Positions 1,895 to 13,354 of a stretch of 32,721 nucleotides of DNA are shown in pieces; positions within the stretch are counted from its first letter, which is position 1, and each line of letters starts with the position of its first letter. Origin of the DNA: Candidatus Kerfeldbacteria bacterium. GTDB lineage: Bacteria > Patescibacteriota > Patescibacteriia > UBA9570 > XYC2-FULL-38-9. The notes beneath the pieces are model-generated. The model did not search any database. It saw nothing but the letters and a program-made list of their open reading frames with translations, and was not told the origin of the DNA. A program made the position numbers and the translations under genes. Location: NCBI GenBank assembly GCA_018500015.2, contig JAHBAR020000030.1, positions 1-32,721 on the forward strand. The letters run 5' to 3'.

Positions 1895-2644
1895 ATGATC
1901 CCAGATTCTCTTATCGCGCCGGTGCGGTTTACGCTAGCACTTGTCGCACTTTTTTTGTGCGTGTCCATTGCAGACACATCCATCACTATGGTGCAAGATG
2001 CGCACAAGCTGAAAGGTGAGGCCCCAGCTCGCACCGTTACATTGAGTGGCACCGGAACTGTTGAGGCAACTCCTTCTGAGGCAAGCATCATCATCTCTGT
2101 AGTCACAGAAGGTGAACAGCAGGCCAGCGTACAAAGCGAAGGCAATGCCACAATGACTGCTGTGCAAACGGCAGTGAAAGAGCTTGGCATTGAAGATGCT
2201 GATATTCAAACCAACGGCTACTCTTTGAACCCGCAATACGACTACACCTCAAGCGAAAGAACGGCAACAGGGTATGAGCTTTCGCAAAGCATTGAAGTAA
2301 CCATTCGTGATGTTGATACTGTGTCTGATGTTATTGATGCTGCAACAGCTGCTGGGGCAAATTCTGTGAGCACACCACAGTTTTCTATAGAAGATGAAGA
2401 GGTGTTGAAAGACGAAGCTCGCGCCAAAGCTGCTGAAGCGGTTGCCGCACAGTATGCATCGTATGAAAATACGCTAGGGGTTGCTCTCGGCGACATTGTA
2501 AGCATTCAAGAATTAAGCGGAGGTGAAACGCCAATCTTTTACGCACTTGGTGCAGCGGAGAAAGATACTTCCTCATCTACACCAATTGCCACAGGTTCAA
2601 ACGAAGTGTCAGTAACACTTTCTGTTACCTACGGTCTACGTTAA
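1895..2644 (+). CDS. SIMPL-domain (DUF541, YggE-like) protein, 249 aa
   Basis: The N-terminus has one hydrophobic segment (about residues 8-28, FTLALVALFLCVSIA) that should act as a signal or membrane anchor. The rest matches the SIMPL domain: it starts with RTVTLSGTGTVEATPSEA, continues with a region like TNGYSLNPQYDY, and then YELSQSIEVTIRDVDTVSDV and the helix DEARAKAAEAVAAQYAS. SIMPL proteins such as YggE sit outside the cytoplasmic membrane and have been linked to oxidative stress, but their biochemical role is poorly defined. The ATG at 1895 has no Shine-Dalgarno sequence and has T at -1. A clear terminator follows, so the gene ends its own transcript before the RND transporter. Confidence 0.85.
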   Translation: MIPDSLIAPVRFTLALVALFLCVSIADTSITMVQDAHKLKGEAPARTVTLSGTGTVEATPSEASIIISVVTEGEQQASVQSEGNATMTAVQTAVKELGIEDADIQTNGYSLNPQYDYTSSERTATGYELSQSIEVTIRDVDTVSDVIDAATAAGANSVSTPQFSIEDEEVLKDEARAKAAEAVAAQYASYENTLGVALGDIVSIQELSGGETPIFYALGAAEKDTSSSTPIATGSNEVSVTLSVTYGLR

Positions 2645-2656
2645 CCATTGCACACA

Positions 2657-2685
2657 AAACACCCGACAACGGGTGTTTTTTTATT
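2657..2685 (+). terminator. Rho-independent terminator after the SIMPL gene
   Basis: A perfect 6-bp stem ACACCC/GGGTGT (2659-2664 with 2671-2676) is followed by a run of seven or more T. It lies 13 nt after the stop codon. Confidence 0.9.
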
Positions 2686-2696
2686 CCAAAACATGC

Positions 2697-2702
2697 TACA
2701 CT
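2697..2702 (+). promoter_or_regulatory. Candidate -10 box of the RND transporter gene
   Basis: TACACT lies just downstream of the terminator and only 9 nt before the ATG at 2712, so the transcript would begin almost at the start codon. The -35 region is T-rich and not close to consensus. Confidence 0.4.
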
Positions 2703-2711
2703 CGGCGCAAT

Positions 2712-5700
2712 ATGAACGAACAAACACTTTCTATTCACACACGTATCACGCGTTATTTTTTGAACAATAAACGTCTCACGATTCTCACATTTTTGTTTCT
2801 TGTGGGCGTTGGTGTTATGAGTGTTTTCTCATTGCGCACAACTGGCTTTCCAAGCGCTGAGATCAAATTTGTGCTTGTGCAATCAGTGTACCCCGGCGCA
2901 TCTGCAGATGCCATGGTAAAAGAGGTTGTACAACCGCTTGAAGGGGCGATTAAAAATATCGCAGGTATTGAAACCTACACATCACAGAGCTTCAATTCAT
3001 TCTCAAGCATCTCTATTCAAGTTGCGCAAAATGTTAGCACCGATTCCGTGAGATCGCAGATAGACAGCGCTGTGCGCAGCGTTGAACTTCCTGATGGTGT
3101 AACGCCGACGGTTATTTCTCCTGATTTTAACAACCCCGACCTTGTACTTTCTGTTGTAGCGGAGTCGAACGAAGCTATGTATGAACTAACGCAGCGATTA
3201 ATTGGGGACATACAAGAACTTCCGGAGACGCGCTCTGTTGAGCAATATATCGAACTCCAAAAGCAGCTGAAAGTCACTGTAGATGCTGATGCAGCACAAC
3301 GGCAGGGTGTCACTGTTGCGGCTGTGCGCACCGCGCTCTCGACAATTGGAGAGCTGTTACCTGTAGCTTCTGATCTCACTATTGATACTGAAAATCAATC
3401 GTTGGTGACTACAGCGCCAACCACAACTCAACAAGACATCTTAAATCTTCCTGTCGTTTCAATCAGTGGCGCGGCGGTGAAATTGTCGGATGTTGCTACA
3501 CTGGATGTTCAATATGCATTTGCTGGTGGGCAAGAGTCGGTTATTGGTGTGCGTGACCATTCCGGTGATTCGGCAGTTGTGTCAGCTGTAACAGTGTTTA
3601 TCAAAACCGTTAAAGATATTGATCAAACCGCATATGTCCATGCTGTACATGACAGCATCAATGGATACGCAGATGCGAAATTGATCTTGCCGGGCGAAGA
3701 AACAACCGACCGCTCAACAGCGTGGGTCGTTCAACATTATTCATCCAACACGTTTAATCAAAATCAGGTGAAAGAGGTCGTTGGCGGGCTTATTGGTGCA
3801 CCGCTCGAAACATCTTCTCCGCTCAAATACGCTGGTTGGATTTTGGGCGGCATACAGCTCGTCTTTCTCGTGATGCTTGCATTTGTTTCATGGCGCGCAG
3901 CACTCATCGCCGCCATCGCGATACCATTGAGTTTAATGTTCTCAACGATCTACATTTATTTGATCGGCGAGCAGCTCAACACACTTGTGCTCTTTTCCCT
4001 TGTTCTCGTTATTGGTTTGGTTGTGGACCCTGCACTTGTGATTCTCGAAAGCATTCAGCGCAAAATTGATGCCGGTGTACGTGGCAAAGCGGCAGCCATC
4101 GCAGCAATGGAAGATGTAGGTCGTGGTTTGTTCATGGCAACACTCACAAATATCATCGTCTTTTTGCCGTTTGGTTTAATCTCTGGCTTCTTAGGAAAAT
4201 TTTTCATCTTTATTCCGTACACCATCATTCCGGCAACAATCGGCTCGTATCTTGTGCCAGTCATTTTCCTCGCATGGCTTGGCGGGCTCTTTTTACGCAA
4301 AAATAAAAAAGCAGTTGATGATGAAGAGAAAAATTTGTGGCCTCTTGCACAATGGATCATACGCACCAACGAACGTATTTTGCGTTCAAGTATCTGGATG
4401 CGCATGGCATTTCTTGTGGTCGCATTCGCCATTCCTATAACGGTTGCGGGGGCACTGTTTGCCATGGGTAACATAAAAGTTGTGCAGTTTGCATCATCAA
4501 GCGATCCAAATTTTTTGAACATTTCTGGCGAATATCTTCCTTCGGCAACGTTAGCGGCGCGCAACGCAGATACACGCGCAATGATTACAGAAGCTGTTGC
4601 GCATGACGGCGTGGAGCAAATTTACCCACTGCAAAATGGAATGTTCTACTTTGTAAATCTTGCACACGCCTCACATCGTGATATGACATCTCCAGAAATT
4701 GCCGACGCAATTCAGGAAAAGATCGCCACATTACCAGCATTCTTCGATATTAAAACGCGCATTGACAAAGTGGGTCCACCTCAAGCCGATTATGAAGTGT
4801 CACTCTCTATAAAGGTCAACGATCAAGCCGAAGCCAAGCTCCACGCACAGAAATTAGGAGCGGCGATGCAGAACGTGTGTTTGGTTGACGGAAAAGTAAT
4901 GGTAAAAGAAGAGGGGTGTGAAGGAGATCTTCAGCTCATCACAAAAGTTGACGATGGTTTTACGAACAAAACTCAGCATACTGTTGCCGTTTCTCTCGAT
5001 CGAGAAAAGCTGCAAGCGCTCCAGCTCACTCTACCAAATGCGCCCGTGTCAGCTATTGTGAATCGTTTACTACGAGATACCTTCCTCACAGGTGATGATG
5101 CCGAGGTGAAAAATGTTGCTGTTGATGGCGCTGAATATCTACTCACCCTTGGCAGTACAACACATGCTCCAAGCACTATTGATGAGATAAAAAATCTTGT
5201 GGTGATTGCTACAGCTCAAGGTGTTGTGCGTCTTTCCGACATTGCTGTGGTCACAGCGGTTGATTCACCGGCAAGTATTTTGCGTGTCAACGGTCAAACA
5301 CTCGCACTGGTGCAAGGTCGTCTTGATACCGCGCACAACGATCAACAAACCGCAGCAGCAGTGACAAGCGCAATTGTTGACTACGGGCAGTCACAAGAAG
5401 AAGGGATTTTAACTGTGTCTGCATATAGCGAAGGCTCAACAGCAGAAAACGCAAAATCTTTTCAAGATTTATTCATCACACTCCTTGTTGCCATTGTTCT
5501 CACATATGTTGTGCTTGCCGTATTCTTTGAGTCGTTCACGCAACCGATTGTCATCCTCTTCACCATTCCGCTCACATTTCTTGGTATCTTCCCGGGGCTG
5601 ACATGGTTTGTCGGTGGACAGTTTGGTTTCTTGGAAATCATCGGTCTCATCATCTTGGTTGGCATTGTCGAAAACGTTGCCATCTTCTTAATCGATGCAG

Positions 5701-5984
5701 CGCGTCAAAAAATCGAACTTGAAAAGTGGGACGACGTGCGCGCAATTTCCTATGCTGCCGGTGTGCGCTTCCGCCCAATCTTACTCACCAAGTTCACCGC
5801 GATCGCATCACTCGCACCACTGGCTATCTTCAGTGAAATATATCGCTCAATCGCAATTCTTATCATGTTTGGCTTGCTGACATCGGGCTTTACCTCGCTC
5901 TTCACAACGCCAATTCTCTTCATTTTTTTCCGTAGACTTTCTAAAAAATTCTGGGGAATGAAGCTATTCCGTGGTACTGAATAG
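2712..5984 (+). CDS. RND-superfamily efflux transporter (AcrB/CusA-like), 1090 aa
   Basis: This is a full-length RND permease: a membrane segment near residues 20-40, a large extracytoplasmic loop, a membrane bundle from about 373, a second loop, and a final bundle ending in RPILLTKFTAIASLAPL. Such proteins use ion gradients to export or move small or hydrophobic molecules. The start is the ATG at 2712, not the TTG at 2673, which overlaps the terminator. The helix-4 relay motif, usually VDDA in HAE-type pumps, reads VVDPALVILES with Asp439 followed by Pro. In helix 10 the HAE lysine position reads Glu987 (GIVENVAIF). One acidic residue in each helix resembles the heavy-metal CusA branch more than AcrB. 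No membrane-fusion or outer-membrane partner is next to it. The substrate is unknown. Confidence 0.9.
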   Translation: MNEQTLSIHTRITRYFLNNKRLTILTFLFLVGVGVMSVFSLRTTGFPSAEIKFVLVQSVYPGASADAMVKEVVQPLEGAIKNIAGIETYTSQSFNSFSSISIQVAQNVSTDSVRSQIDSAVRSVELPDGVTPTVISPDFNNPDLVLSVVAESNEAMYELTQRLIGDIQELPETRSVEQYIELQKQLKVTVDADAAQRQGVTVAAVRTALSTIGELLPVASDLTIDTENQSLVTTAPTTTQQDILNLPVVSISGAAVKLSDVATLDVQYAFAGGQESVIGVRDHSGDSAVVSAVTVFIKTVKDIDQTAYVHAVHDSINGYADAKLILPGEETTDRSTAWVVQHYSSNTFNQNQVKEVVGGLIGAPLETSSPLKYAGWILGGIQLVFLVMLAFVSWRAALIAAIAIPLSLMFSTIYIYLIGEQLNTLVLFSLVLVIGLVVDPALVILESIQRKIDAGVRGKAAAIAAMEDVGRGLFMATLTNIIVFLPFGLISGFLGKFFIFIPYTIIPATIGSYLVPVIFLAWLGGLFLRKNKKAVDDEEKNLWPLAQWIIRTNERILRSSIWMRMAFLVVAFAIPITVAGALFAMGNIKVVQFASSSDPNFLNISGEYLPSATLAARNADTRAMITEAVAHDGVEQIYPLQNGMFYFVNLAHASHRDMTSPEIADAIQEKIATLPAFFDIKTRIDKVGPPQADYEVSLSIKVNDQAEAKLHAQKLGAAMQNVCLVDGKVMVKEEGCEGDLQLITKVDDGFTNKTQHTVAVSLDREKLQALQLTLPNAPVSAIVNRLLRDTFLTGDDAEVKNVAVDGAEYLLTLGSTTHAPSTIDEIKNLVVIATAQGVVRLSDIAVVTAVDSPASILRVNGQTLALVQGRLDTAHNDQQTAAAVTSAIVDYGQSQEEGILTVSAYSEGSTAENAKSFQDLFITLLVAIVLTYVVLAVFFESFTQPIVILFTIPLTFLGIFPGLTWFVGGQFGFLEIIGLIILVGIVENVAIFLIDAARQKIELEKWDDVRAISYAAGVRFRPILLTKFTAIASLAPLAIFSEIYRSIAILIMFGLLTSGFTSLFTTPILFIFFRRLSKKFWGMKLFRGTE

Positions 5985-5989
5985 GCTCT

Positions 5990-6020
5990 AAAGAGGCATG
6001 CCGCAGCTTGCCTTTTTTGC
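5990..6020 (+). terminator. Rho-independent terminator after the RND gene
   Basis: AAAGAGGCA pairs with TGCCTTTT around a 10-nt loop, and the run CCTTTTTTG provides the T-tail. It lies directly after the stop. Confidence 0.65.
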
Positions 6021-6029
6021 CAAAGCGTG

Positions 6030-6035
6030 TATACT
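6030..6035 (+). promoter_or_regulatory. Candidate -10 box (TATACT) of the Rel/Spo-like gene
   Basis: A perfect TATACT lies 15 nt before the chosen ATG, between the upstream terminator and the gene. This predicts a leader of about 8-9 nt. Confidence 0.5.
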
Positions 6036-6050
6036 CTCGCGCGTATTCTT

Positions 6051-7454
6051 ATGAAGAACAATGACAGACGACCAGATCTATTCTCAAGTGATGTAGGGGT
6101 ATTACGAAGAAATGTAGAACGGTTTAGGCGTTTTCAAGGTATATTGAGTTATGCTGAAAGTGCGCCTCCTGTACAATTTCGGGCTGCAATTGTTCGCGAG
6201 TTTGCTCGATATGTTGATGTACAATTGAGCAACGATGAGAATGTAGATAATGAACGCCTTGCTGGTGAGTATGGACGAATAGAGCGTGCTATTGCTTCAG
6301 CCCACAGCTCACTCGCAGGTTTTGTGAAGGATATTGCTCTTGCCGATCTTGCGCAAGGTATTGAACCAATCAATGAAATTGCGCGTGTTAATGACCCAGC
6401 GATTTTGCTTTCCGCGATGCTTGGTTCACGTGAAGGCAATGTCGGTTTTGAGGCGCGACGCGCACTGTGGCTTGGTGGATTTTTTTGGAAATTTGAACGC
6501 GAGATTGGTTGCGTCGAAGATTTGCAAGACGCATTACGTTCATTGGAATTCTATCTTGATGCGCGTTTAGGTATTACCTCAACCCCACGCAACGTGACGA
6601 TGTTCCATGAAATGCATGTTGACGAATCAGGCAAGCCGATTGTTTCTGGTGTCCGCATTCCAACTTTTGATGGTTCATCGGATAATCGTATCAATGGAGA
6701 GAATATGGTATATATCTCGATGCGTGCAATGCCGCATCCGAAAGATCCGTCACGGCAGATATATTTTACACTTCGTGCTCGACCAAAATCTCGTTTTTCT
6801 GCATTGATGAAGTCGATCCGTAAGAATCAACCTTTAGGTAATCTTAATGATATTCTTGGAATTACATTTTCTGTCTACCAGCGTCATGGTGATGAACTAC
6901 AGGCAGTTGTTGAAGCGGTAGATGGTCTTTTTGAGTTTGATGTTCCATCGCGCGAAGTTCATCCGTTGCGTGGTACACATACACAGCGCGTGTCAAATGC
7001 AAATCGAGATGAACTTTTTCAAGCGGAAAAAGCAATAACCAAGTGGAGCATGGATGATATAGCGTCATACGATGAACTACTGGCCACAGCTCTTCATAGA
7101 ATATTTCCAAACCCTTTTGTTCTGCGTAATATGCAAGAAGCGCGTGCACGCTTGGCTGGCAGGCGTTTTTCACTTGAAGTTCAAGCGATGACAATGGAAG
7201 ATATGGTGCTTGGAAAATTTGCTGATGCCGACGTGAACCATGCAATTTATGAAACTAGAAGAGCATCAAGGCCTGTGGATGGCGATCATATGCATGAAAA
7301 AACTTCACTTGAATTGCTGTTTCCAGAGGATCACTATGGTATCCCGTGGGGAGCCCCACATATTCAGCAAGCTATTCGTGCAAAACAGTTAGCAACACTT
7401 GGTTTGACACGTAAAATTTTGGATCGGTTTGGACCTACCCCAATTGCAAAATAG
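6051..7454 (+). CDS. RelA/SpoT-like nucleotidyltransferase-fold protein, degenerate, 467 aa
   Basis: The start is the ATG at 6051, 15 nt after a TATACT box. Residues 1-200 are mostly helical and unassigned. From about residue 240 the motif order follows the (p)ppGpp synthetase domain. RPKSRFSALMK (244-254) fits R-x-K-x3-S-x3-K. DILGIT (267-272) fits DIxGxR except that the Arg is Thr. LEVQAMTMEDM (from 375) fits ExQxRT except that the Arg is Met. A clear Y-x-S-x-H strand is missing. There is no HD hydrolase domain before it and no TGS or ACT domain after it. Rel/Spo proteins transfer pyrophosphate from ATP to GDP/GTP; the changed residues argue for lost or altered chemistry. An ECF sigma gene follows at a short distance. 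I am fairly sure of the fold but not of any activity. Confidence 0.5.
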   Translation: MKNNDRRPDLFSSDVGVLRRNVERFRRFQGILSYAESAPPVQFRAAIVREFARYVDVQLSNDENVDNERLAGEYGRIERAIASAHSSLAGFVKDIALADLAQGIEPINEIARVNDPAILLSAMLGSREGNVGFEARRALWLGGFFWKFEREIGCVEDLQDALRSLEFYLDARLGITSTPRNVTMFHEMHVDESGKPIVSGVRIPTFDGSSDNRINGENMVYISMRAMPHPKDPSRQIYFTLRARPKSRFSALMKSIRKNQPLGNLNDILGITFSVYQRHGDELQAVVEAVDGLFEFDVPSREVHPLRGTHTQRVSNANRDELFQAEKAITKWSMDDIASYDELLATALHRIFPNPFVLRNMQEARARLAGRRFSLEVQAMTMEDMVLGKFADADVNHAIYETRRASRPVDGDHMHEKTSLELLFPEDHYGIPWGAPHIQQAIRAKQLATLGLTRKILDRFGPTPIAK

Positions 7455-7514
7455 TGTTATTGTTTGTACATGAAAGAAAGTGAGGAGTGTTCGCGTACTA
7501 TAAAAGTGCAGCCT

Positions 7515-8069
7515 ATGACTGAAATCTCAGACCACGATCTGGTTGTGCTCGCACGCTTTGATCCTGAGGCGTTTGCCGGAATTGTGAATCGCTATTCCGG
7601 GAAGCTCAAACGGTATATTCATCGACTTTCTCGCGTTTCGTCGGAGGAGGGCGAAGATATAGTGCAGGAAATTTTTATCAAAGCGTATCTGAATTTGAAT
7701 AGCTATGATGATCGACTGCCGTTTTCGTCGTGGATGTATCGTATTGCGCACAACGAATGCATTAGTCAATTTCGAAAACGCCGCGCGCGCGGTATCGACG
7801 AGCAGTATGATCTTGATAACGATGCCGTGCAACGTTTGATCTCTGATCTTTCGCCTGAGCGCGACATCGACAATCTGTTACGAAAAGAGTTCGTCGCGCA
7901 AATTCTCGACAAACTTCCCGATAAGTACAAATCTGTTCTCGTGCTCCGGTACCTTGAAGATAAATCCTACGAAGAAATTGCAGACATCTTGGAAAAAAAT
8001 CCAAAAACCGTTGCCACACTTCTCAATCGAGCCAAAAAAATGTGTCATTCACTCATTACACACGTATGA
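7515..8069 (+). CDS. ECF-type RNA polymerase sigma factor (sigma70 family), 184 aa
   Basis: Region 2 is clear: FAGIVNRYSGKLKRYIHRL, then EDIVQEIFIKAYLNL and FSSWMYRIAHNECISQFRKR, which bind the core enzyme and the -10 element. After a linker, region 4 has LPDKYKSVLVLRYLEDKSYEEIADIL and the recognition helix NPKTVATLLNRAKK. No region 1 or 3 is present, so it is of the ECF type. I prefer the ATG at 7515 to the ATG at 7470 because it has the T at -1 typical of this window, sits 10-14 nt after a TACTAT/TATAAA sequence, and places region 2 at the usual distance. The longer start would add 15 residues. The stop overlaps the next start (ATGA), so the membrane protein that follows is translated with it. 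Confidence 0.9.
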   Translation: MTEISDHDLVVLARFDPEAFAGIVNRYSGKLKRYIHRLSRVSSEEGEDIVQEIFIKAYLNLNSYDDRLPFSSWMYRIAHNECISQFRKRRARGIDEQYDLDNDAVQRLISDLSPERDIDNLLRKEFVAQILDKLPDKYKSVLVLRYLEDKSYEEIADILEKNPKTVATLLNRAKKMCHSLITHV

Positions 8070-8830
8070 ACTCTCCACATCCTACAACTGAACACACAAC
8101 AACGAGCGATGCGGTGATGACGCAGATCAAGCAAAAGCATCTCGCTCCAATTCCACGATGGCGATTTGTGTTGCTCAATATTGGTTTGTGGGCAAGTGGT
8201 GTTGCCGCGGCGATTGTTGGCGCGCTTGGTGTGTGTATGATCATTGTTGTGCTCAAAGATTCGCAGTGGCAACTGCTTAGCACGCGTCCGCATTCTGGTG
8301 CGCTCATTATTCGTACATTGCCGTATCTGTGGATCCTTCTTCTTGTGGTATTTGTGTACCTCGCTCACAAACTTGTGCGTCATACTCGCTACGGATACAC
8401 ATACGCGCCGCTGTATATCCTTGTCATTTCTTTGTGTGTCAGCGCTGTCGGCGGAGGCGTGTTATATGTGAGTGGTATAGGGAATGCGTTTGTGTCATTC
8501 ATCGACGATCATCGTCCACCATTTCACGCAATGTTTATTCCGCAGTACGCAATTTTTGAAGATTCAGCAGAGGGGTTGTTGCGTGGGCGCGTTACAAAAA
8601 TTATTTCAAGCAAGGAATTTGATTTAAAAGATCCGCGTGGTGAAGAGTGGGTTGTTGATATTTCTAATGCGAGCATCACTGGCAACATTGTCGAGAATGC
8701 GATTGTGCACGCAGCCGGTGAACCAGAAGAAGGACGCGTATTCCGCGCTGATGTTGTGCTTGTGATGCCTGGTGAGCGCGGTTCACGCATGATGGGTGGC
8801 CCAGGGATTATGTACTTCCAGGCACGTTGA
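8066..8830 (+). CDS. Membrane protein coupled to the ECF sigma factor, putative anti-sigma, 254 aa
   Basis: The gene overlaps the sigma factor by 4 nt (ATGA). A soluble N-terminus of about 33 residues is followed by three hydrophobic segments (about 34-64, 86-102 and 114-140). A C-terminal domain with a beta-rich pattern (LLRGRVTKIISSKEFDLKD, then EEWVVDIS and VFRADVVLVMP) resembles OB-like domains and would lie outside the membrane. ECF sigma factors are commonly paired with a membrane anti-sigma encoded directly downstream, and the topology and overlap fit this. I do not see a zinc-binding HxxxCxxC anti-sigma motif or another recognised anti-sigma domain, so the role is inferred from position only. 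Confidence 0.65.
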   Translation: MNSPHPTTEHTTTSDAVMTQIKQKHLAPIPRWRFVLLNIGLWASGVAAAIVGALGVCMIIVVLKDSQWQLLSTRPHSGALIIRTLPYLWILLLVVFVYLAHKLVRHTRYGYTYAPLYILVISLCVSAVGGGVLYVSGIGNAFVSFIDDHRPPFHAMFIPQYAIFEDSAEGLLRGRVTKIISSKEFDLKDPRGEEWVVDISNASITGNIVENAIVHAAGEPEEGRVFRADVVLVMPGERGSRMMGGPGIMYFQAR

Positions 8831-8903: not shown

Positions 8904-9329
8904 ATGAAAACTCTCAAAACTCCACTGATGCTTGGTCTCGTCAGTCTCGGGATGGTTGGTGGTGCTGCAACTGCACTCATAAGCAATAATGCATTTGCTG
9001 CAGATGATACAACCACTACAACAATCACAGCTCAAGACGCTGATCGTGAAGCGATGAAAGCATTGCGCGAAAAAGCAGAAGCAGCAATTACGTCAGGCGA
9101 CTACAGCACATGGGCGGCAACGATGAATGAAATCAACGACACCATGTACGAAAAAATGAAATCGGGAATTACTGAATCCAACTTTTCGCTCCTACAACAA
9201 ATTCAAACCGCGAAAGACAATGACGACATGGAAACTGTCCGTACACTTTCTCAGCAGCTGACACTTCCAATGCCAATGCATGGCGGCATGGGTGGTCATC
9301 ACGGTCCACGCCCAGGCGACAATCAATAA
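8904..9329 (+). CDS. Small secreted protein with His/Met/Gly-rich tail, 141 aa
   Basis: The N-terminus is a typical signal peptide: MKTLK, a hydrophobic core MLGLVSLGMVGGAATALI, and a likely cleavage site near NAFA-AD (about residue 32). The mature part has a Thr-rich start, then about 80 helical residues (REAMKALREKAEAAITSGDYS) and the tail MPMHGGMGGHHGPRPG. The tail could bind metal ions such as copper or nickel, and the overall plan recalls small periplasmic metal- or stress-response proteins. I cannot assign a family with certainty. It sits between the sigma/membrane pair and the ferric-reductase-like gene, so it may belong to the same response. Confidence 0.8.
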   Translation: MKTLKTPLMLGLVSLGMVGGAATALISNNAFAADDTTTTTITAQDADREAMKALREKAEAAITSGDYSTWAATMNEINDTMYEKMKSGITESNFSLLQQIQTAKDNDDMETVRTLSQQLTLPMPMHGGMGGHHGPRPGDNQ

Positions 9330-9342
9330 CACGTTCATGTGA

Positions 9343-9348
9343 TATACT
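9343..9348 (+). promoter_or_regulatory. -10 box (TATACT) of the flavin electron-transfer operon
   Basis: TATACT, with a TG two bases upstream, lies 36 nt before the ATG at 9385. The next feature, a 10-bp inverted repeat, begins inside this box. Confidence 0.5.
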
Positions 9349-9378
9349 GCCTCCAGACACTCCACTGGAGGCAGTTTT
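9347..9378 (+). terminator. 10-bp perfect hairpin followed by TTTT; terminator or 5' leader hairpin
   Basis: CTGCCTCCAG (9347-9356) pairs exactly with CTGGAGGCAG (9365-9374) around 8 nt, followed by TTTTG. It can end transcription from the secreted-protein gene. Because it overlaps the -10 box and covers the predicted transcription start of the next operon, it could also act as an operator or a 5' stem on that mRNA. Confidence 0.6.
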
Positions 9379-9384
9379 GCTGAT

Positions 9385-10695
9385 ATGCGCTACTACAAAC
9401 CCATTATCCTCACTCTCATTACGTTGACGACACTTCCGTTTTGTTTGGTCTTTCTCAATCTTGACTTGTCAGTGTACTCAGCATTCCCAAAACTGTTTTG
9501 GCTCCAGCTCTTTGGAGTTATCGGGAGCGTTACTGGATTGATTGGTATTGTGCTGTGCTTCTGGCAAGTGCTGCTTGGTTCGCGTTGGATCACCAAACAT
9601 ATCACCAACGATTTATTGTGGATCAACCGCGAGCATCAACGGCTCGGAATTTACGGCGGCATGTTCGTTCTTGTGCACCCGTTTTTTCAAATGTATGCAT
9701 ACGGTGAGTCGTGGCTCTTTCTGTTTTTTCCGTACATCGATACACACTTTAATACACAAATTACCTTTGGTCGCATCGCATTCCTCCTTTTTGCTGTTGT
9801 GTGGGTGACGAGTGCTGTTATACGTGGAAAAATCAGCTATCGTCCGTGGTTGTATTTGCACTACTTTGCATACGGTGTGTTGATCTTTGCTGCGCTTCAC
9901 ATTCGTGAAATTGGTTCTGTGCTTGCACACTATGAATGGTTGCGCACATTGCTGACAGCAATTTTTCCAATCACACTTGTGCTGCTTATTGTTCGTCTTC
10001 TTTACGCATGTGGAGCGCTGCAGTATCGGTATTGCGTTGTGGCCGTGCATCGCGTTGGTCAAGTGGTGGTGTTTCGTGTGATGCCGCAAACACAACATAA
10101 AATTTTTCCACGCGCAGGACAATTCTGTTACGTGCAATTGAAAAAACTCAGTGAGTCGCATCCATTTTCTGTTATGGATGTTGATGAGCGTACAGGTGAA
10201 CTCACATTCGGTATCAAATCTTTCGGAAAATATTCCAAGCGCGTATTCGACATTGCAGTGGGTGCAGAAATTTTTCTTGATGGTCCGTTTGGAGTGTTTT
10301 GCGAAGAAGGGCGTAACGCACAACCAAAAGTGCTGATCGCTGGTGGCATCGGTATCACGCCGCTCTATCATGTTGTGCGCAAATATTCGAGCGAGCACAC
10401 ATACATGATCAACTGCAACCGCACGTTGAGCGAAGCTGTTGGACGCATGCAACTGCAAGAACATCTTGGTGCGCGCTACACCGATGTGATTTCCAACGAA
10501 CAGATCGACGATCCGCACGTTGTGTGTGGCGCGCTTAACGAAGAAGTGCTGCGCCAACGTGTCCCTCAGGAAATATGGAAAAACGCAGAAATATTTTTCT
10601 GTGGTAATCCAAAATTTTACGCTGCGACACGTGTGATTCTCTTGCGTATGGGCATTCCCGCGAAGCGCATTCATTTTGAGGCGTTCTCGTTATGA
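9385..10695 (+). CDS. Ferric-reductase-like transmembrane flavoprotein (haem/FAD/NAD), 436 aa
   Basis: About six or seven membrane helices (residues 5-215) carry two His pairs, His84/His98 and His159/His172, with the 13-14 residue spacing of transmembrane haem ligands in the ferric reductase/NOX family. The C-terminal half is a ferredoxin-NADP reductase-like unit. It has SHPFSVM at about 258-264 for FAD, GGIGITP at 320-326 for the nicotinamide nucleotide, and FCGNPKFYAA near 405, ending in FEAFSL. The protein should take electrons from cytosolic NAD(P)H through FAD and haems across the membrane. The stop overlaps the ApbE start (ATGA), and an FMN-binding anchored protein follows, so the likely electron acceptor is encoded in the same operon. 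The final substrate is unknown. Confidence 0.9.
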   Translation: MRYYKPIILTLITLTTLPFCLVFLNLDLSVYSAFPKLFWLQLFGVIGSVTGLIGIVLCFWQVLLGSRWITKHITNDLLWINREHQRLGIYGGMFVLVHPFFQMYAYGESWLFLFFPYIDTHFNTQITFGRIAFLLFAVVWVTSAVIRGKISYRPWLYLHYFAYGVLIFAALHIREIGSVLAHYEWLRTLLTAIFPITLVLLIVRLLYACGALQYRYCVVAVHRVGQVVVFRVMPQTQHKIFPRAGQFCYVQLKKLSESHPFSVMDVDERTGELTFGIKSFGKYSKRVFDIAVGAEIFLDGPFGVFCEEGRNAQPKVLIAGGIGITPLYHVVRKYSSEHTYMINCNRTLSEAVGRMQLQEHLGARYTDVISNEQIDDPHVVCGALNEEVLRQRVPQEIWKNAEIFFCGNPKFYAATRVILLRMGIPAKRIHFEAFSL

Positions 10696-11597
10696 AATCT
10701 CTACTCGACGCATTTCCAGGGTTGGGCACGTTGTGGTGGATTGATGTTGAGGATGCGCTTTCACATGAGCGCATGGTCATGCTTAAAGGGTTGGTCATCG
10801 CTCAGATGAAAAATTTCGAAGAGACCTATTCGCGTTTTAAAGAAACATCTTTGCTCTCAACACTCAATCGTGAAAAATTCATCGAAGATGCGCCAGATGA
10901 ATTTATCGACATGCTCATGCGTTCGCAGCGCTACGAGCGCATGACGCGCGGTTTGTTTTCGATTGCCGTTGGCGGCGTGCTTGAGCGTCTCGGCTACGGA
11001 CTCACAGGCGACACGACACTTCCACTCCCGCAGCAGCTTCCATCGATCGAGTCGTTTCTGACAATCGATCATCACACTGTGCGCATCGACAACAGCATCC
11101 GCATCGATCTTGGTGGCATCGGCAAAGCGTATCTTATTGAGCGACTCGCAGACTCTATTCGTTCAAACGGTGTCAAAGAATTTCTCATCAACGGTGGCGG
11201 CGACATTTTGGTGGAAAGTAGCACAGAGCTTCACATTGAAATCGAACATCCTACGAATCCTGAGCTCAGCATCGCATCAATCCCCATCACGCACGGTGCG
11301 ATCTGTACCTCATCGCCGTTCAAGCGAGCGTGGAAAGGGGAGGGCAACATCAAGAGACAGCACATTATCCATCCGCATCACACACAAGAAACAGCTGATA
11401 CCTTTCAAGAAAGTGCGACGGTGCGCGCGCCAACCACCGTTGATGCCGATGTCTTTGCAACAGTGTGCGTGCTCTTAGGTTCGAAGAGGTGGGATGAGAT
11501 CGCAGAGCTCGCTCCACTCTTTCACGCCGACGTGCTACTCTGCTCAGGTGCTGGAATCGCACATGCATCAGAGAACATTCATTCAACTATTCATTAA
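10692..11597 (+). CDS. apbE: ApbE-family FAD:protein FMN transferase, 301 aa
   Basis: ApbE transfers FMN from FAD to a Thr of exported proteins. Family motifs appear in order: ETYSRFKETSLLSTLNR near 40, DLGGIGKAYLIERLAD near 140 (usual DLGGIAKGYA), NGGGDI near 165, HGAICTS, HIIHPHHTQ (usual HIIDPRTG, here with His for Asp), and TTVDADVFATVCVLLG near 255. I see no clear lipobox or long signal peptide, and the first 20 residues are only moderately hydrophobic, so export is uncertain. The start overlaps the ferric-reductase-like stop by 4 nt, indicating translational coupling. The FMN-binding gene 6 nt downstream is the obvious substrate. Confidence 0.9.
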   Translation: MKSLLDAFPGLGTLWWIDVEDALSHERMVMLKGLVIAQMKNFEETYSRFKETSLLSTLNREKFIEDAPDEFIDMLMRSQRYERMTRGLFSIAVGGVLERLGYGLTGDTTLPLPQQLPSIESFLTIDHHTVRIDNSIRIDLGGIGKAYLIERLADSIRSNGVKEFLINGGGDILVESSTELHIEIEHPTNPELSIASIPITHGAICTSSPFKRAWKGEGNIKRQHIIHPHHTQETADTFQESATVRAPTTVDADVFATVCVLLGSKRWDEIAELAPLFHADVLLCSGAGIAHASENIHSTIH

Positions 11598-11603
11598 ATC
11601 TAT

Positions 11604-12125
11604 ATGAACACAAAAGCTTTTGTAGGAGCAGGCGTTGGTGTCATTGTTGTTGGTAGCGGCGTTATCGCGTACCAAGTATCAAAACCCACTGAAACCGAAA
11701 CTCCAACGAACACAAACGTTGTTTCGACAAACACGAACACACGCACAAATGCAAACACTGTTCGTACAAACATAAACACTTCGACAACAAACGCAAACAC
11801 TAGTGTAGCAAAGAACACAAATACGAACGTATCATCAGGTGCAAACGGAACGTTTTCCGCAACAGTTTCATATCAAGCACCAAACGAGAGTAACACAATC
11901 ACTGTTTCTGTGACCATCGCAAACGATATTGTTCAATCAACAACACTCAGCAGCCAGCCGGGCGGCGCGCAGTCAGCACAATACCAAGCCGCATTTAAAG
12001 CCGCGTACACAAGCAAAGTAGTTGGTCAAAATATCAACACCTTAAATTTGTCGCGTGTTGGTGGAGCGACGCTTACTACGCAAGCGTTTAATAACGCTAT
12101 CGCTCAAATCAAGAACCAGTTGTAG
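11604..12125 (+). CDS. Membrane-anchored FMN-binding domain protein with flavinylation site, 173 aa
   Basis: Residues 5-24 form one uncleaved-looking membrane anchor (FVGAGVGVIVVGSGVIAYQV). An Asn/Thr-rich linker of about 55 residues follows (repeated TNTN, TNAN), then a domain from about 82. This reads like the small FMN-binding domain of NqrC/RnfG/PplA-type proteins: GTFSATVSYQAP, VTIANDIVQSTTLS, and the motif VGGATLTTQAF near the C-terminus. Thr156 in GGAT is the expected site of phosphoester-linked FMN. The usual D-x-x-S-G-A-T is relaxed here to S-R-V-G-G-A-T. With ApbE just upstream and the haem/FAD protein before that, it should carry electrons outside the membrane. Its stop overlaps the end of the convergent gene by 17 nt. 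Confidence 0.85.
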   Translation: MNTKAFVGAGVGVIVVGSGVIAYQVSKPTETETPTNTNVVSTNTNTRTNANTVRTNINTSTTNANTSVAKNTNTNVSSGANGTFSATVSYQAPNESNTITVSVTIANDIVQSTTLSSQPGGAQSAQYQAAFKAAYTSKVVGQNINTLNLSRVGGATLTTQAFNNAIAQIKNQL

Positions 12126-12689: not shown

Positions 12690-12726
12690 GACGTCCCACC
12701 ACATTCTTTGGGATGTCTTTATTTCT
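12690..12726 (+). terminator. Hairpin with T-rich tail in the leader of the lipoprotein gene
   Basis: GACGTCCC (12690-12697) pairs with GGGATGTC (12710-12717) with one G-T pair, followed by TTTATTTCT. It lies 17 nt before the lipoprotein ATG. No plus-strand gene precedes it except the distant FMN-binding gene, so it may act as an attenuator or as a late terminator for that operon. Confidence 0.5.
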
Positions 12727-12742
12727 AAAAAACATTTACCCT

Positions 12743-13354
12743 ATGAAATCAAAACTACTTCTTACAATTCCAGTTATCGCACTGGCAACAATCTTGACTG
12801 GCTGCACAATGACTGTAACCAACACAAACGCTAATTTCAATGCTGCTGCAAATACGAATGTTGCGGTAGAGAATACAAATACAGCGGTGAATGAGAATAC
12901 AAACGTTTCCACGACTAACACAAACACCTCAGCCCACGCGGACTGGAAAACATATACTGATCCCGAGAAAGATTATAGTTTCCAGTATCCCTCTGACTGG
13001 AACGTCAGAGTGTATCAAGAAGGTGATCCTGGAGAAATGGGCGTTAGTTTAGGAACTATTATTATTTCTTCGGATGTCTGTCGTATTTTTGGAAATACAA
13101 TGCGGGCAGGATCTATCGAAGATATTAAAAGTACCGCAACATCAGATCAGCAACTCTCTCCAGTGTATTCTGACTCTGAGGTTGAAGGTATTAAATACTA
13201 TACAACTGTAAATGAGTCTGGTGATAAGGCGTTCGTTTATGGTTTTGATATACATGGTTTAGAATTGGGTTTTAATTTAGTTGAAAATATTAACGACGAA
13301 CAATGTTCAAATATTTTTGACGAAATAATGATGACTTTAAGTGCACATTCCTGA
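12743..13354 (+). CDS. Lipoprotein with Asn/Thr-rich linker and PsbP-like domain, 203 aa
   Basis: The start is the ATG at 12743 (T at -1), not the ORF-track start at 12713. A lipoprotein signal MKSKLLLTIPVIALATILTGC ends in the lipobox LTGC, so Cys21 should be lipidated and the protein held on the outer face of the membrane. A linker of about 45 residues made of repeated NTN units follows, much like the linker of the FMN-binding protein one gene away. The folded part from about 76 begins WKTYTDPEKDYSFQYPSDWN, a pattern found in PsbP-like and similar surface domains, and contains two well-separated cysteines. The ligand or role is unknown. The stop lies in the first arm of a long inverted repeat. 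Confidence 0.8.
   Translation: MKSKLLLTIPVIALATILTGCTMTVTNTNANFNAAANTNVAVENTNTAVNENTNVSTTNTNTSAHADWKTYTDPEKDYSFQYPSDWNVRVYQEGDPGEMGVSLGTIIISSDVCRIFGNTMRAGSIEDIKSTATSDQQLSPVYSDSEVEGIKYYTTVNESGDKAFVYGFDIHGLELGFNLVENINDEQCSNIFDEIMMTLSAHS

Follow-up and report, generated by a model that had tools for sequence, protein, structure and literature searches.

The DNA analysed here (the window) is one 32.7-kb contig from the 1.07-Mb, 98.8% complete genome of Candidatus Kerfeldbacteria bacterium, a member of the Candidate Phyla Radiation (CPR, or Patescibacteria), and it carries in one tight operon the genes for a ferric-reductase-type transmembrane cytochrome (hereafter FRD), an ApbE flavin transferase and a membrane-anchored FMN-binding protein. 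We read these three genes, with a probability of roughly 0.7, as a minimal transmembrane electron-export unit through which electrons of NAD(P)H would reach a surface protein tagged with flavin. The ultra-small CPR bacteria are for the most part described as fermenting organisms that lack respiratory chains. Judged by its gene content, the module is an MsrQ-like flavinylation system, a kind already published, in an unusual lineage. What is new here is the apparent exchange of one outer carrier for another, the probable repeated coupling of FRD to flavinylation genes and the puzzle of an ApbE without a signal peptide, rather than the three-gene set itself.

The three proteins and their operon

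The three open reading frames (ORFs) lie exactly where they had been predicted, all on the forward strand, with FRD and apbE overlapping by 4 nt (ATGA) and 6 nt separating ApbE from the FMN_bind gene (Table 1), and profile searches matched each product to the family proposed for it. In FRD, all three domain matches exceed the Pfam cut-off (PF01794 Ferric_reduct, 31.2 bits, cut-off 28; PF08022 FAD_binding_8, 26.6 bits; PF00175 NAD_binding_1, 26.2 bits, cut-off 22), and in the AlphaFold2 (AF2) model (pLDDT 82) six long helices lead into a ferredoxin-reductase fold. The histidine pairs of the original prediction are present, 14 (H84/H98) and 13 (H159/H172) residues apart, as are its HPFS and GGIGITP motifs at residues 259 and 320. 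H84, H98, H172, H259-P260 and the GGIG.TP core are unchanged in 14 homologues from the same class, across which GQ, a Cys of the NAD domain and the C-terminal E.F are also conserved, and FRD probably binds two b-type haems. Its best solved match was SpNOX, both by profile (5e-70) and by fold (E 2.8e-17, TM 0.70/0.77).

The ApbE residues S207, H224 and D253 match Ser241, His257 and Asp285 of the Vibrio cholerae enzyme in order and spacing, and R212 corresponds in the same way to Arg262 of Listeria FmnB. The protein has no signal peptide, since its reading frame is closed four codons upstream of the ATG, and hydropathy gave no hydrophobic segment at the N-terminus; it thus does not have the N-terminal lipoprotein signal that is typical, though not universal, of extracytosolic ApbE. 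This is the case nearly throughout the 55 matches scanned in clusters of CPR, Saccharibacteria, Chloroflexota and Actinobacteriota, the clearest exception being locus L209, and the start codons in GC-rich loci are uncertain.

The third protein carries a single N-terminal hydrophobic segment (residues 5-23, by hydropathy) and its domain matched PF04205 with 23.3 bits when searched alone and, just short of the cut-off of 22, with 21.2 bits within the whole protein; 8 of 12 close relatives also hit the family. A profile of 12 window-type domains matched one of 18 NqrC/RnfG-type CPR domains with 96% probability, and the solved FMN-binding domain 8p2a was found at 1.6e-12 by a mixed, wider CPR profile and only at 0.017 by the window-type profile alone. 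The protein is thereby placed among FMN-binding domains, failure of which had been named beforehand as grounds for refutation. In the AF2 model of the domain (pLDDT 92.6; three strands, two helices) the putative flavinylation site Thr156 opens the last helix, and its conservation, the other check proposed, holds, with Ser or Thr at this position in all 30 aligned CPR homologues. Export of the carrier is expected because the FMN_bind protein of a relative (L100) has a lipobox-like N-terminus. Asn/Thr-rich linkers occur at 11673-11834 in the FMN_bind protein and at 12713-13354 in a lipoprotein-like gene two genes on; among the 310 ORFs of 20 further contigs, only one has a comparable linker.

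The contig also holds EF-Tu and S10/spc ribosomal genes (L3, L2, S3, SecY). A 4.3-kb stretch of one class relative is identical to a Buchananbacteria record, and a second relative shares about 80% identity with a record of Uhrbacteria, so that the genome belongs to the CPR, as had been supposed of the DNA from its letters; to judge by these names, its class would be ABY1. The module has a GC content of 0.473, against 0.41-0.50 in the other contigs, and a tetranucleotide deviation as large as its own is found in 20% of same-size pieces of the genome.

Table 1. Coordinates of the module and its predicted functional sites in the window
Feature	Position	Strand	Evidence
Hairpin, 11 bp, then TTTTG	9346..9375	+	RNA fold -23.4 kcal/mol, z -5.1 vs shuffles
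FRD, NOX/ferric-reductase-type transmembrane cytochrome with FAD and NAD domains, 436 aa	9385..10695	+	Pfam
Codons H84 to H98, first candidate haem-ligand set, helix 3	9634..9678	+	Invariant in 14 homologues
Codons H159 to H172, second candidate haem-ligand set, helix 5	9859..9900	+	H172 invariant; H159 13/14
HPFS, residues 259-262, FAD-binding motif	10159..10170	+	Sequence motif
GGIGITP, residues 320-326, nucleotide-binding motif	10342..10362	+	Sequence motif
ApbE, FAD:protein FMN transferase, no signal peptide, 301 aa	10692..11597	+	PF02424, 141.9 bits
ApbE catalytic residues S207, R212, H224, D253	11310..11450	+	Invariant in 12 CPR ApbEs
FMN_bind protein: N-terminal anchor, Asn/Thr-rich linker, C-terminal FMN-binding domain, 173 aa	11604..12125	+	PF04205
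Thr156 codon, predicted flavinylation site in SRVGGAT	12069..12071	+	Ser/Thr in 30/30 CPR homologues

Gene neighbourhoods and outer carriers in the class

We compared the module with 381 genomes of the same class; the window FRD alone, used as a query on genome contigs, found no relative, and an alignment-based scan succeeded. Of these genomes, 47 have an ApbE and 37 an FMN_bind protein, the window genome having exactly one of each and no match to Cyt-b5. Among the matches listed, FRD, FMN_bind and ApbE are adjacent only in the window and, in a different gene order, in genome G053 (2/381); the synteny on which the original prediction depended therefore exists in related CPR genomes but is thin. 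Clusters with the three genes were also found in records of Actinobacteriota, Chloroflexota and Dormibacterota. Together with G053, and with three family matches in one tight operon, they rule out that the genes are chance neighbours.

Among the 30 best full-length FRD homologues of the class, 20 adjoin a membrane-anchored cytochrome b5 (for instance L112, L120, L111, L113, L117 and L131, where it directly follows FRD), 2 adjoin FMN_bind and ApbE, and 8 neither. The b5 profile had been seeded with six of the counted loci; with Pfam Cyt-b5, three of the four b5 proteins scanned scored over the cut-off and the fourth just under it. Because of this distribution, the class looks, from its gene neighbourhoods, as though it had one cytochrome with an interchangeable outer carrier. 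A limited literature search returned no paper that describes FRD together with a cytochrome b5 in CPR. The FRD-b5 pair is also present outside the class, in the DPANN archaeon L151 (Pacearchaeota) and in Pseudomonadota, the further non-class loci being L166, L184, L189 and L199. In three relatives of the same order, all belonging to the eight homologues with neither partner, a Fur-family gene follows FRD at a distance of 0 or 1 nt (L076:6574-8324, L077:5312-7031 and L014:1405-3134), an arrangement suggestive of regulation by iron or by peroxide.

The pairing of FMN_bind with ApbE recurs across the class, where the other ApbE clusters are of an FMN_bind-ApbE-NqrB/RnfD type or of a split type with a reductase, ApbE and a protein of six transmembrane helices. 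ApbE clusters with no FMN_bind gene have instead a membrane-anchored Pro/Thr-rich tail with a conserved C-terminus (L070:7361-8383, L069:423-1550, L071:2613-3644, L075:1440-1877, L142:352-1440, L144:2432-3478, L143:990-1400, L203:4992-5987 and L150:6158-6412). These tails end in PRTTMS, PRTRLS, PRTSVS, PRTTVS, PRTRMS (twice), PTTKVS, PRGGAS or VRTTGAS, and such C-termini were found in about 10 of 1211 ORFs of the sampled loci, most of them Pro/Thr-rich tails. As they resemble the ApbE motif [ST]GA[ST] placed at the very end of the protein, they are candidates for a natural flavin tag on a string. A wider generalization, which we put forward tentatively and which may well prove wrong, is that in these ultra-small bacteria the NOX-like core (NOX, NADPH oxidase) is a generic wire for NAD(P)H export whose outer end was exchanged on several independent occasions (a tethered haem b5, a flavinylated FMN_bind domain or, in the split versions, no more than a disordered tail with a flavin-tag-like motif at its end), the flavin being attached by cytosolic ApbE before Sec export.

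A proposed electron route and its alternatives

According to our preferred reading, the FAD of FRD would accept hydride from NAD(P)H in the cytosol, and single electrons would then cross the membrane by way of two stacked b-type haems. On the outer side they would reduce an FMN attached by ApbE to Thr156 of a domain tethered to the membrane on a flexible linker. The tethered FMN could then reduce an external acceptor such as Fe(III), oxygen or soluble quinones or flavins, by which a fermenter would dispose of reducing power. This route from NAD(P)H through FAD and haem to a surface flavin is the one originally predicted. Homology supports it, and so does the class, in which FRD usually stands next to an outer redox domain on a tether; its flavinylation step is complicated by a signal-less ApbE whose supposed target is anchored outside.

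Several observations weigh against this reading. The site SRVGGAT departs from the flavinylation consensus D-x-x-[ST]-G-A-[ST], with Ser for Asp and Gly for Ser/Thr; Gly, Ala and Thr of the consensus are retained, and losing the Asp is reported to have only minor effects. A Foldseek search with the FMN_bind model gave no significant match (best E 0.014, to IscU; 8p2a at 0.063), so that the placement of this protein draws on sequence profiles. ApbE and its target may be on opposite sides of the membrane, because ApbE has no signal peptide, TatC (PF00902) was found neither in the window genome nor in 18 relatives, and the target is anchored outside. Our preferred guess is that ApbE would modify the carrier in the cytosol before export. 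Finally, FAD synthetase (PF06574) and ferrochelatase (PF00762) were not detected in this nearly complete genome, which encodes flavin- and haem-dependent proteins yet shows no match to either enzyme, and FAD and haem may therefore be imported or scavenged, or made by unrecognised enzymes.

Alternatively, the unit could reduce iron for assimilation and so supply the uptake of ferrous iron, an explanation we hold to be unlikely but worth keeping in mind, given that some MsrQ-like and NQR/RNF-like clusters contain a VIT1 iron transporter and that a Fur-family gene follows FRD in the three relatives mentioned above. However, the neighbours of the module in the window include no recognised iron transporter or Fur gene, and the Fur-flanked FRDs are in relatives without FMN_bind and ApbE.

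Rather improbable, in our view, is that FRD is a bacterial NADPH oxidase which converts oxygen to superoxide at the outer face, with iron reduced secondarily and the flavinylated protein an accessory or part of another pathway. SpNOX, the closest solved structure by profile and fold, is an NADPH oxidase that produces superoxide, so that oxygen has to be taken seriously as another possible acceptor. FRD also passes the published bacterial-NOX filters (HPFSV for H[PSA]F[TS][LIMV], GIGITP and H84/H98/H159/H172), and 6 of the 8 partnerless class homologues have no visible outer carrier apart from Fur neighbours. These filters, however, do not distinguish oxidases from ferric reductases, which for FRD makes the two undecidable by sequence, and a tethered redox partner, for which an oxidase would have no need, adjoins most class homologues.

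We give still less credit to the idea that ApbE serves a cytosolic substrate and that the FMN_bind protein, not flavinylated or binding free FMN, shares the operon and follows a separate electron path. The signal-less enzyme beside a membrane-anchored carrier and the deviating motif would fit such an arrangement, and in Klebsiella a cytosolic ApbE does serve a cytosolic fumarate reductase (PMC12052999). Yet the sole FMN_bind gene detected in the genome comes 6 nt after its sole ApbE, the pairing recurs in the class with the Ser/Thr of the site kept and an ApbE nearly always signal-less, and the lipobox-like N-terminus in L100 makes export of the carrier the expectation. That the module is contamination of the CPR bin or a recent foreign import can practically be dismissed: the nearest neighbours in the FRD tree are Saccharibacteria and Streptomyces proteins, but the ribosomal genes and EF-Tu on the contig, a composition that fits the genome and an identity of only about 33% to the Streptomyces protein speak against it, an older transfer being possible.

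Evolutionary history of the module

The FRD tree comprised 94 proteins and was inferred with a 'quick' search; it has long branches, and its groups were named after the tree was viewed. The window FRD groups with one Saccharibacteria and one Streptomyces protein (support 97), G053 lies inside a mainly CPR b5 group, and the actinobacterial and chloroflexal set with FMN_bind and ApbE forms a third group. Approximately unbiased (AU) tests rejected the union of the window FRD with the actinobacterial and chloroflexal set (p 1.5e-78) and, again for FRD, a shared single origin of the set in the window and that in G053 (p 1.7e-5). In the ApbE tree, G053 falls with other CPR ApbEs (support 99) and the window sequence is on a long, unplaced branch. 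Because of the AU results there is good, though not final, phylogenetic evidence that the coupling of FRD to FMN_bind and ApbE arose repeatedly, and the copy in the window appears to be an independent assembly within a group that seldom has such systems.

Surroundings of the module

Upstream of FRD, the hairpin listed in Table 1 and its short T run stop 9 nt before the start codon, and this short gap holds no obvious ribosome-binding site. It is a probable terminator of the upstream gene, although a consensus terminator scan did not detect it, or else an operon-start hairpin that could control translation. Just upstream (8904-9329) is a small secreted-looking protein with a Met/His/Gly-rich tail (MHGGMGGHHGPRPGDNQ) and no family match, for which metal binding is possible. 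The region 1895-8830 encodes a SIMPL (DUF541) protein, an RND (AcrB-type) transporter, an ECF-type sigma factor, an unrecognised 475-aa protein and an unrecognised membrane protein. The possibility that the contig's right half holds a prophage was rejected, since this part is the ribosomal operon.

Significance and comparison with known systems

A three-gene route from NAD(P)H to the surface would give one CPR lineage a testable way to shed electrons or act on its surroundings. The swap between b5 and FMN carriers makes it testable what FRD-type cytochromes pass electrons to, and the signal-less ApbE, on which side of the membrane the enzyme acts.

Extracytosolic flavinylation has been called strikingly underrepresented in CPR, from which the NQR/RNF-like type is reported, and a 2025 study (PMC12153355) claimed genes of flavin-based extracellular electron transfer (EET) in CPR and DPANN, with no complete set. 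Our literature searches for Patescibacteria with flavinylation, ApbE or ferric reductase found no paper. The earlier view that a complete three-part set is notable in CPR thus stands in so far as the set is real and the lineage unusual, and gives way in that systems of this kind are published and incomplete EET had already been claimed for the group.

The MsrQ-like system was defined by a transmembrane PF01794 protein with two haem sites that is encoded with apbE and FMN_bind and in many cases bears PF00175 at its C-terminus; it is broad in Actinobacteria and infrequent elsewhere, and NAD(P)H is its proposed donor (Meheust 2021, PMC8238504). The window shares with it a PF01794 protein with four conserved His and a C-terminal PF00175 domain, and ApbE and FMN_bind in the same cluster, but its FRD is outside the actinobacterial and chloroflexal clade. 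With SpNOX (PDB 8qt6, 8qq7) the window FRD has in common the FAD and NAD domains and the four-histidine signature; SpNOX makes superoxide, and the SpNOX-related locus L208 of Streptococcus pneumoniae shows no FMN_bind or ApbE. The NQR/RNF-like clusters of CPR and Actinobacteria, several of them in the class, share FMN_bind, ApbE and a fused membrane and NAD protein, whereas their membrane part is NqrB/RnfD-like and that of the window a four-histidine Ferric_reduct domain. The FRD-b5 pairs of the class have, as in the window, a homologous FRD directly adjoining an anchored outer redox domain, but their outer carrier is a haem b5 without ApbE. The flavin-based EET of Listeria (Ndh2, EetA/B, FmnB, PplA), lastly, shares with the window an ApbE-type enzyme and the idea of a surface flavoprotein; unlike it, the window module would need no quinone step, because FRD carries its own NAD(P)H domain.

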